A stretch of 64,000 nucleotides of DNA from Isosphaeraceae bacterium EP7 (GTDB lineage: Bacteria; Planctomycetota; Planctomycetia; Isosphaerales; Isosphaeraceae). The stretch covers positions 1,251,174 to 1,315,173 of the forward strand of contig CP151667.1 in assembly GCA_038400315.1 (NCBI GenBank), written 5' to 3'. Positions 31,594-35,094 of this stretch are shown here, one piece after another. Positions within the stretch are counted from its first letter, which is position 1. Every line of letters begins with the position of its first letter. The notes under the pieces were generated by a model. That model was not told the DNA's origin. It made no database searches and was given only the letters and a program-made list of their open reading frames with translations. A program made the translations under genes and the position numbers.

Positions 31594-32342
31594 AGGCACG
31601 CCCGGGGCCGCCCCTCGCCGAAGTTCCTGCGAGCGGCGGCCCTCGATGTGCAGGTTGAATCACCCGGACCCGAGGGCAAACTTGGCGACTTTGTCAATCT
31701 CGTGACTTATTGTCAATTAAGCTCGGACGGGCTGCTTAAACGCGATTTGGGGATTTAGGCGAGATAGCCACCTGGTGGAGGCATTCATGAACTATGAAGG
31801 CTGCGTGAACCGCTCGAGGTCATGATTGCGTTTTCCTCGAGACTTCAAGGTCGATTCGATCTCCCGACACCACTCGAAATTTTGTCACTCCGGTCAAAAG
31901 AGATCCTTTCGGAAATCGAGCTAAACAGTTGATTTTCAGGGGGTTAGTCGAAGTTCTTGACCGATTGTCCAATCTTTTTTCGGTCATTTTAAGAAAACCA
32001 CTGTCCGTGTCTCTAAAACACACCGTAATGCATGCTGGAAGGGGCAGGGTCGAGGATTCACGATCGTTCGGCACGCGGTTTATTCAGGAGGCGAGGCACG
32101 ATGGGCCTTCCGAATATCGGGTCTTCGAGATGAATCGAACTCATCCCGCATTGGCGAACGAACCAATCCAAAACGATCCATTTCGGGTAATTCTCGCCTC
32201 GATTAGAGAATCCGTCCGATGGAGCAGGAAGAGCACGTTCGTTCGGCCCTTGGATCGGGATAAACTCTCGGGAACGTCTCTCGACGATTCCGGAGGCCCC
32301 CCGAGGCCGACCAGACAGGGTCTTAGAGGCTCGGTTTGCGTC
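31594..32342. other. 750-bp AT-richer gap upstream of the XerC-like gene
   Basis: The composition drops clearly in GC between about 31,690 and 32,340. It includes runs such as CAATCTTTTTTCGGTCATTTTAAG (31,968-31,991). A frame joined to the recombinase gene is open through part of this region, but it uses no genome-like codons. TTGACC at 31,959 followed by an AT-rich stretch could be a promoter. I see no RNA gene or repeat. Confidence 0.4.
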
Positions 32343-33284
32343 ATGCATCCATCCATTGCTGCCTTCCTGAACTATCTCCGTCGCGAGCGTCAAGCGTCGC
32401 CGCACACGCTCCGGTCGTATGAAGACGACCTGGCCGTATTCCAGCGATTCCTCGGCGAGACCAATGCGAAGGGGGAGCGGACGGATGCCGGGGTCGATGA
32501 GGAGTCGGCCGCGAATCCGACGGAGGCCGACCCGCGGCGACTCAGGCGCTATGCGGCCTGGCTGTCAAGCCAGGGTTATGCCCCGAGCACGGTCGCACGC
32601 CGGCTGGCAAGCCTCCGGTCGTTCTTCCGCTACCAGCGTCGGCAGGGCGTCGTGTCGGCCGATCCGTCGGGCGGCCTGCGGAACCCGAGGCAGCCGAAGC
32701 GGCTGCCCAAGCTGCTCGGGGTCGACGACGTCATCCGCCTGCTCGACGCGATCGAGACCGGCACCGACCTGGGTCTGCGGGACCGCGCGATGTTCGAGAC
32801 CCTTTACGGCGGCGGCCTGCGGGTCGGCGAGTTGGTGGGCCTGAATCTCGACGACCTCGACGAGGATCGCGGCCTGGTCCGGGTCCGCGGCAAGGGGCGA
32901 CGAGAGCGGCTCAGCCCGATCGGCAAGACAGCCCTGGCCTGGATCGTCCGCTGGAGGTCCGCCCGCCGCCCCGAGCGTCTCGACGAGCCGGCCCTGTTCC
33001 TCAATCGATACGGCAAGCGGCTCTCCAGCCGGAGTGTCGGCCGCCTTCTGGAAGACCACACCCTGAGAGTGGGGCTCGACCCCGCCTCCAGCCCGCACAC
33101 GCTCAGGCACAGCTTCGCCACCCACCTGCTCGACCGCGGCGCCGACCTGAGGAGCGTCCAGGAGCTGCTCGGTCATCGGAGCCTTGCCACCACCCAGATC
33201 TACACCCACGTGACCCGCGAACGACTGCTCGAAGCCTACCGAGGAGCGCACCCGCACGCCCAATCCGCCACCCAGGAGCCCTGA
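32343..33284 (+). CDS. xerC: XerC-like tyrosine recombinase
   Basis: ATG 32343 gives a 313-residue protein of standard XerC/XerD size, starting MHPSIAAFLNYLRRERQASP, the usual SAM-like N-terminal domain. It has a 20-residue acidic insert near residues 42-62. Catalytic residues are Arg160 (GGGLRVGEL), Lys184 (VRGKGRRERL), His252 and Arg255 (PHTLRHSFATHLL), His278 (LGHRSLATTQIYTHV) and Tyr287. It probably resolves chromosome dimers at dif with a XerD partner. Whether it is XerC or XerD cannot be settled without comparison. It has no good ribosome binding site. Confidence 0.88.
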   Translation: MHPSIAAFLNYLRRERQASPHTLRSYEDDLAVFQRFLGETNAKGERTDAGVDEESAANPTEADPRRLRRYAAWLSSQGYAPSTVARRLASLRSFFRYQRRQGVVSADPSGGLRNPRQPKRLPKLLGVDDVIRLLDAIETGTDLGLRDRAMFETLYGGGLRVGELVGLNLDDLDEDRGLVRVRGKGRRERLSPIGKTALAWIVRWRSARRPERLDEPALFLNRYGKRLSSRSVGRLLEDHTLRVGLDPASSPHTLRHSFATHLLDRGADLRSVQELLGHRSLATTQIYTHVTRERLLEAYRGAHPHAQSATQEP

Positions 33285-33567
33285 TCACGGTCCCAAGCTG
33301 GCCGAGACCGCGCGAGTGGGAATCGGCCCCGACGTGTCTTCATGCGTGAAAATTGACGACACGCCACCCGCGATGTATATCCCCATCGTTGCACCCACTT
33401 CGAGCTTGCATCCAATGCGACCGAAGGGCATGCGGCCTGGGTCGATGAAGACCCCGTAGTCGCCCTTTCGACCGCTTTACCGAGGGTCGTCCGCGACAGC
33501 TCATTCCTCATGGATGACACCTCGGCCCACGTGTGCATCACGCCGGGCGCCATCGAGAGAGACTGAC

Positions 33568-35094
33568 ATGAAAGCCCGCATCCTTATCGTTCTCCCCGAG
33601 CCGAGCGTGCACGCATTGCTGGACTCCATGCTGCGTGCCCTCGGACATGAGATCGAACAGGCCCCGAACGACCGCGTCGCCGTCCGGCGCGTCGAGCGGG
33701 GCGGGGTCGACCTGGTGGTGGCCTGGGCTGATCCGGACGAACCCGACGCCCTGGAGCTGCTGAACTTCGTGCGTCGCAAGTTCGCCAGGATCCCCGTGAT
33801 CTTGATGTTCCCGAAGCTCAACCCCGAACGGACTCGCGAAGCCGTCCGCTACGGCGCCTCGGCGGTCCTCCGCTATCCCCTGTCGGCCGTCGAGCTGCGT
33901 GCCGCGGTGACCCAGGCGCTCGAGTCCTTCGGCGATTCGACGGACGAGCCGGCGGCCGTTTCCCGCCCGCCGGTCGTCCAGGCGAGGCCCGAGGCGCTCC
34001 CCCCCCTGGTGGCCGACTTCGCCAAGCACTTCGCCCAGGCCCAGCCGGCCCCCGCGCCGATGACGTTGGAATCGCCCCGTCCCGACGGCTCATCGCTGGT
34101 GGGCGAGGACGCGAGCTTCCGCCAGGCGGTCGAGCTGGCATCGTCCATGGCATCGTCCCGCAACCCCCTGCTCATCGTGGGCGAGCGGGGCGTGGGCAAG
34201 AGCAGGCTCGCCCGGAAGGTCCACGAACTAGGTCCCTGGAAGGATCGAGCCTTCATCGAGCTCGGCTGCGGTTCCCTCGGCTCTGCCCAGCTGGAACGCG
34301 AGCTGCTCGGGCACAAGACGGGCGGCAACGGCCTGGACAACGGGGTCTACCGCCCGGGCGCCCTCTCCCTGGCCCAGGGGGGGACGATCTTCCTCGACGA
34401 GGTGGCCAGCCTCTCGCCCCATCTCCAGTTCCAGCTCCTCAGGGTCATTCGCGATTCCGAGTTCGAGCCGGTCGGGTCGACGAAGGCGGTCCGGGCCGAC
34501 GTCCGGATCATCATGTCCAATCGGGAAGACCTCAGCGTCCTCGTCGAGCAGAACCTGTTCCGGCAGGACCTCTACTATCGCCTGGGCGGCTGCCTGCGGC
34601 TCCCCCCCCTGCGTCACCGAGGCTTCGACGTCGAGCGCCTGGCCGAGGCCTTCCTCGCCAGGATCTCCGAAACGGCCGGCAAGCGGATCGTCGGCTTCAC
34701 GCCCGACGCCCTCGACCGGCTCCGTCATCACGACTGGCCCGGCAACGTCCAGGAGCTCGAGTCCCTGGTCCAGCGTGCGGTCAACGCCTGCCAGGGTGGG
34801 CGAATCACCCTGAACGACCTCGGACTGACACAGCCGATTCGCGACATCTTGCCCCCCCAGACCACGGCCACGCTCGTTCCCTCGGCCTTCCCCGCCGCGA
34901 AGCAGCAGGAACGGATCAGGCCCCTGAAGGAAGCCCTCGAAGAGCCCGAGAAGCAGCTCATCATCCAGGCCCTCACCGCCCTGAGTTGGAACCGTCAGGA
35001 GACCGCCCGCGTCCTGGACATCAACCGGACGACGCTTTACAAGAAGATGAAGAAGTACGGGCTCCTCATTGACGAGCCCGCCTGGGTGAACTGA
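33568..35094 (+). CDS. NtrC-like AAA+ regulator with degenerate receiver, no GAFTGA
   Basis: The 508-residue protein has three parts. Residues 1-120 have a receiver fold, but the acidic pair is replaced by Leu-Pro (ILIVLPEPS), the acceptor position is Trp53 in LVVAWADP, and the conserved Lys is lost. The AAA+ domain (175-400) keeps Walker A GERGVGKS (205-212), Walker B GGTIFLDEV (271-279) and arginine fingers in FRQDLYYRLGG. Where sigma-54 activators have GAFTGA it reads HKTGGNGLDNGVYRPG. A C-terminal Fis-type HTH (460-498, RQETARVLDINRTTLYKKMKKYGLL) binds DNA. It therefore probably binds DNA but may not contact sigma-54 in the usual way. The start follows GAGAGAGA. Confidence 0.88.
   Translation: MKARILIVLPEPSVHALLDSMLRALGHEIEQAPNDRVAVRRVERGGVDLVVAWADPDEPDALELLNFVRRKFARIPVILMFPKLNPERTREAVRYGASAVLRYPLSAVELRAAVTQALESFGDSTDEPAAVSRPPVVQARPEALPPLVADFAKHFAQAQPAPAPMTLESPRPDGSSLVGEDASFRQAVELASSMASSRNPLLIVGERGVGKSRLARKVHELGPWKDRAFIELGCGSLGSAQLERELLGHKTGGNGLDNGVYRPGALSLAQGGTIFLDEVASLSPHLQFQLLRVIRDSEFEPVGSTKAVRADVRIIMSNREDLSVLVEQNLFRQDLYYRLGGCLRLPPLRHRGFDVERLAEAFLARISETAGKRIVGFTPDALDRLRHHDWPGNVQELESLVQRAVNACQGGRITLNDLGLTQPIRDILPPQTTATLVPSAFPAAKQQERIRPLKEALEEPEKQLIIQALTALSWNRQETARVLDINRTTLYKKMKKYGLLIDEPAWVN

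Follow-up and report, generated by a model that had tools for sequence, protein, structure and literature searches.

An NtrC-type regulator without GAFTGA and receiver chemistry throughout the Isosphaeraceae

Isosphaeraceae bacterium EP7 encodes an NtrC-like regulator in which both the receiver chemistry and the GAFTGA loop have gone, and the same is true of all 43 orthologues found in its family. The apparent loss of sigma-54 coupling and of phospho-signalling dates to the ancestor of the family and was one event. The best explanation, which we regard as quite probable, is that a planctomycete NtrC-type regulator lost both couplings once and survived as a DNA-binding transcription factor that works at sigma-70-type promoters. 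Most likely it would now be an ordinary DNA-binding factor used with the standard RNA polymerase. That the regulator would be independent of phosphorylation and of sigma-54 follows strongly from the sequences compared below.

The gene lies in a stretch of 64,000 nucleotides of contig CP151667.1 (the window; features in Table 1) as an open reading frame of 508 uninterrupted codons. The ATG at 33568 is the correct start and coincides with the starts of the orthologues; an alternative in-frame ATG at 33514 finds no support in these starts. The domain order is receiver-like, Sigma54_activat AAA+, lid and Fis-type HTH. Pfam detected Sigma54_activat (PF00158, 1.2e-42), and AAA_lid_14 and HTH_8 also exceeded their cut-offs, while the receiver stayed below threshold (26.3 bits vs a cut-off of 30.2). 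AlphaFold, with 38 Isosphaeraceae family sequences as input, gave confident receiver and AAA+ folds and a reasonably confident HTH (mean pLDDT 83.9); the stretches of about 126-175 and 425-451 come out as disordered linkers. The closest solved structures in Foldseek were NtrX, NtrC1, NtrC4, LuxO, and FleQ, and the AAA+ domains of PspF, NtrC1, and FleQ were matched.

Table 1 Features of the regulator gene and its upstream region, in window positions
Feature	Position	Strand	Remark
XerC/D-type recombinase ORF, syntenic neighbour	31929..33284	+	true start probably further in
Putative sigma-70-like promoter TTGACG-N17-TATATC, upstream of regulator gene	33353..33381	+	
GAFTGA-less, receiver-dead NtrC-like regulator, 508 aa	33568..35094	+	
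Pseudo-receiver domain, residues 1-120	33568..33927	+	
L9-P10-E11 vs D-D-D in relatives; acidic pair gone	33592..33600	+	
W53, phospho-acceptor position	33724..33726	+	
F81, conserved Thr/Ser position	33808..33810	+	
Y103, conserved Lys position	33874..33876	+	
Pro/Ala-rich disordered linker, residues 124-175	33937..34092	+	AlphaFold pLDDT mostly <50
Walker A GERGVGKS	34180..34203	+	
Loop 1 HKTGGNGLDNGVYR instead of GAFTGA	34312..34353	+	
Walker B TIFLDE	34384..34401	+	
Sensor I region DVRIIMSNRED, Asn of 'ATN' gone	34498..34530	+	
Arginine fingers R332 and R338	34561..34581	+	
AAA+ lid domain	34603..34827	+	Pfam, AlphaFold
Fis-type HTH, near-invariant in Isosphaeraceae	34924..35073	+	

An earlier note on this DNA had described a receiver without the acidic pair, the acceptor Asp, and the conserved Lys, and the alignment bears this out (L9/P10, W53, and Y103). 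The positions of CheY D12/D13 correspond to L9/P10, and the acid at position 11 (E) stands outside the pair. Thus, the residues expected of a phosphorylated response regulator (acidic pair, acceptor Asp, Thr/Ser, and Lys) are absent from the protein, while the receiver fold is confidently predicted, which makes the domain a pseudo-receiver, or atypical response regulator, as defined previously (PMC12632262). The acceptor position of the 43 Isosphaeraceae copies is occupied by G (25), S (9), L (3), W (2), A (2), or C (2). The comparison of homologues proposed in that note supports its reading: the loop and the acceptor Asp are missing from 43/43 copies. The Trp itself is not conserved. Other residues have become conserved in the pseudo-receiver, namely S20, M21, D35, R36, R40, E43, R44, P56, E63, R69, R70, K71, F81, R111, A112, and Q116, and many of these gains are basic (R36, R40, R44, R69, R70, K71, and R111). 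Where normal orthologues have a signalling helix that joins receiver and AAA+ domain, the Isosphaeraceae copies have a variable Pro/Ala-rich stretch.

The AAA+ domain is of the Sigma54_activat type, as in bEBPs, and is without GAFTGA, here and in all 43 family orthologues. The loop region GHKTGGNGLDNGVYRPG aligns where relatives read GHVAGAFTGA...G, so that the reported replacement of the sigma-54 contact loop, by HKTGGNGLDNGVYR, is confirmed. Walker A (GERGVGKS), Walker B (in the context IFLDEV), and both arginine fingers (R332/R338) had likewise been read correctly as retained. The sensor I Asn is absent from the window copy, 'ATN' having become 'SNR', and Gln substitutes the conserved Arg of 'GNVREL'. 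Since Walker A, Walker B, and the arginine fingers are retained, this copy may still hydrolyse ATP.

A single-copy orthologue was found in 43/45 Isosphaeraceae genomes, the two others being incomplete assemblies (68% and 77% complete); the nearest named carriers include Singulisphaera acidiphila, Tautonia sociabilis, Aquisphaera insulae, and Paludisphaera soli. Neither the acceptor Asp nor GAFTGA nor the sensor I Asn occurs in any of them (0/43 each). The orthologues from other families of Planctomycetia, and those from Phycisphaerae, have GAFTGA-type loops and normal receivers. These have the same domain order, a related HTH, a position in sister clades and, at several loci, the XerC-type neighbour; they differ in having the acceptor Asp, the Lys, GAFTGA, the sensor I Asn, and the signalling helix. 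In the listed genomes of two family groups of the same class, f3 and f4, no close orthologue (E <1e-63) was found; most other families of the class, unlike these two, do carry one.

In a tree built by a quick method and containing one long-branched member (L016), the Isosphaeraceae copies form one clade with a support of 100 and a long stem, which adjoins the normal orthologues and is separate from the other bEBPs of the genome; the tree, like the rates given below, draws in many cases on metagenome-assembled genomes. Orthology with the normal regulators is based on this position and on the common XerC-type neighbour. A single loss of GAFTGA suffices on the tree, while Walker B requires at least 8 state changes. 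As the loss is common to 43/43 orthologues, sequencing damage or chance is excluded. The suspicion that the EP7 copy is simply damaged is refuted, homologues with GAFTGA and the acceptor being found only outside the family and one loss accounting for the pattern.

The domains have fared differently since. The mean pairwise identity within the family, compared with that among normal orthologues, is.58 vs.54 for the receiver,.18 vs.79 for the loop,.46 vs.74 for the stretch from Walker B to the sensor,.59 vs.58 for the lid, and.89 vs.69 for the HTH. An identical 27-residue HTH core is shared by 29/42 copies. In close pairs, and with some of the underlying dS values saturated, dN/dS amounts to 0-0.1 in the HTH and 0.04-0.18 in the receiver; it reaches 0.37 in parts of the AAA+ domain and spans 0.03-0.6 (mostly 0.12-0.6) in the loop and 0.15-1.2 in the linker. 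Purifying selection thus acts on the pseudo-receiver, in which new positions have become conserved. Loop 1 is different in each family member, is wholly missing in one, and keeps the Phe-Thr pair in none; the loop drifted freely after the loss of GAFTGA. Of the 43 copies, 42 have the Walker A Lys and 37 have both arginine fingers, while the Walker B 'DE', present in only 17, was lost repeatedly. This pattern of constraint argues that what selection maintains is DNA binding together with a conserved pseudo-receiver, and not a sigma-54 machine. The earlier proposal of a regulator working without phosphorylation, and perhaps without sigma-54, is supported to the extent that sequences can speak to it, by a loss that is family-wide and by a receiver and HTH with dN/dS far below 1.

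Sigma-54 itself has not left these bacteria. The EP7 genome has one intact rpoN and 12 other bEBPs with GAFTGA-type loops, and rpoN was detected in 43/45 genomes of the family (41 exceeding the family cut-off).

How the regulator might work can be outlined from these observations. The unchanged Fis-type HTH would bind specific DNA, and sigma-70-type promoters would be activated or repressed through contact or occlusion; the regulator would carry out no ATP-driven remodelling of the sigma-54 polymerase. The AAA+ domain would most likely serve oligomerisation, and ATP might be held in it as a ligand with a structural or gating role. Nucleotide binding without hydrolysis is suggested by Walker A being kept almost everywhere when the hydrolysis residues are not, and Rhodobacter capsulatus NtrC and VpsR serve as models for this step (PMC10274813). 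The pseudo-receiver would be a conserved interaction or ligand module, responding to a signal other than Asp phosphorylation. The complete picture, in which a sigma-54 activator turned a single time into a sigma-70-type factor conserved across the family, its pseudo-receiver offers a conserved surface of its own for a non-phosphate signal, and its AAA+ ring still binds nucleotide but has repeatedly dropped hydrolysis, is put forward tentatively, with somewhat less than an even chance of holding in all its parts.

Other explanations were considered. The regulator could be an antagonist that occupies the enhancer sites of a bEBP of the same specificity or forms mixed dead hexamers with it, as its HTH has remained similar to the one in GAFTGA-bearing orthologues from other families and the AlphaFold model retains the AAA+ fold. 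However, the ancestral form was replaced rather than duplicated, and no paralogue with a similar HTH was found in the EP7 genome (the next best are 35-47% identical, with E 1e-5 or worse), which makes such a role improbable. Activation of sigma-54 through an unusual loop 1 appears very unlikely. It would draw on the nearly normal length of the loop in the window copy and on the main ATPase motifs, all present except sensor I, but it would have to accommodate a loop that varies throughout the family and lacks the Phe-Thr pair everywhere, the absence of Walker B from most members, and the reported essential role of GAFTGA in sigma-54 activation (PMC3162934).

We give hardly any credence to a decaying relic with little function left: the AAA+ motifs are indeed repeatedly eroded in the family, but an HTH with dN/dS near 0, a constrained receiver, a nearly universal single-copy gene, and a conserved promoter-like element upstream all speak against decay. 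It is also improbable that the protein is mainly a nucleoid- or chromosome-associated DNA-binding protein of the Fis kind, with gene regulation as a secondary task. The near-invariant Fis-type HTH and the XerC-type recombinase conserved alongside would fit; yet the XerC-type neighbour also flanks normal sigma-54 regulators in several other families, so this adjacency is older than the change.

The reading that we prefer, a sigma-70-type factor derived from a sigma-54 activator, has precedents. GAFTGA-less bEBPs acting at sigma-70 promoters include Caulobacter and R. capsulatus NtrC as well as VpsR (PMC10274813; PMC3162934). ATP binding is needed by R. capsulatus NtrC, but not hydrolysis, and VpsR requires neither phosphorylation nor ATP (PMC10274813). 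VpsR of Vibrio cholerae, a sigma-70 regulator matched by Foldseek (7v2b, E 3.9e-23), resembles the present protein in combining a receiver, an AAA+ domain without GAFTGA, and a Fis HTH; it differs in having a conserved phosphate-sensing Asp, found in 0/43 copies of the present family. VpsR also binds c-di-GMP. We infer an origin independent of VpsR from the grouping of the clade with normal planctomycete orthologues, in a tree from which VpsR is absent. The NtrC proteins of R. capsulatus and Caulobacter share the loss of GAFTGA from loop 1 and use sigma-70 promoters, but their receivers are phosphorylated, whereas the present protein has lost its receiver chemistry as well, and most of its relatives have an eroded Walker B. 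The best explanation would be that the regulator works like VpsR or like Rhodobacter and Caulobacter NtrC and arose separately.

The top structural match is NtrX of Brucella abortus (5m7p, E 5.7e-35), whose aligned loop 1 is also without GAFTGA; it is likened to the present clade by structure and loop, and orthology is not implied. NtrX is the phosphorylated receiver of the NtrYX pair. TyrR and DhaR, which have other sensor domains, and HupR, which has a receiver, are likened to the clade by the lost GAFTGA, without membership in it being implied. These three are relatives of sigma-54 activators that have lost GAFTGA and use sigma-70, and a survey of 2011 counted them, with VpsR and YplP, among the proteins that lost sigma-54 contact through GAFTGA changes (PMC3162934). 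The comparison with TyrR-like proteins made in the earlier note is sound as regards GAFTGA and sigma-70, but VpsR, R. capsulatus and Caulobacter NtrC, and NtrX are closer.

NtrC-like regulators without GAFTGA had been isolated cases (VpsR, TyrR, and the NtrC proteins of R. capsulatus and Caulobacter). In the Isosphaeraceae, a single basal loss can be traced through 43 species, with normal orthologues outside the family. Once contact with sigma-54 is lost, selection keeps the HTH, the pseudo-receiver, and Walker A, and releases loop 1, sensor I, Walker B, and the coupling helix. The on/off switching of pseudo-receivers has been called a mystery (PMC12632262), and the conserved pseudo-receiver residues of the Isosphaeraceae family are defined test points for it. 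A literature search for papers naming Isosphaeraceae together with sigma-54 found none, and a sigma-54 survey of 2025 that included Planctomycetia retained GAFTGA-bearing proteins only (PMC12316311). Counts of PF00158 proteins overestimate the sigma-54 activators of planctomycetes.

The XerC-type recombinase gene precedes the regulator gene in Isosphaeraceae and at several loci of GAFTGA-bearing orthologues. At four of the latter (L066, L070, L074, and L079), a NarL-type response regulator sits between xerC and the NtrC-type gene; none was seen at that place in the compared Isosphaeraceae loci. An element related to the putative sigma-70-like promoter occurs in about 30 family members, 180-280 bases 5' of the gene. 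It has the form TTTGACG-N17-TAnnnn, with a conserved spacer that reads TTGCATCC.TGACATA in many members. A k-mer search upstream of the gene found this promoter-like element and no clear operator, and palindromic dyads in an operator search of the same region were not above shuffles. With 3 mismatches allowed, the element pattern matched no more than once in any genome of the family, almost always before the regulator gene, and pointed to no regulon. Upstream of the GAFTGA-bearing orthologues, neither a match to a sigma-54 promoter nor a strong common motif was seen.

Two further bEBP-like proteins of EP7 are of note. One (L204, G000:C1:4090390-4091778) is a second GAFTGA-less protein, with a degenerate Walker B and an architecture of PAS-like, AAA+, and Fis HTH domains, the PAS label being a reading of the sequence and not a Pfam result. 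Its orthologues occur in 37/45 Isosphaeraceae genomes, and the loop is missing in all twelve that were read. The Isosphaeraceae thus appear to hold two sigma-54-uncoupled regulators that differ in layout. The other (L096, G000:C1:2157340-2158635) keeps GAFTGA and has a receiver-like domain seemingly without phosphorylation residues.
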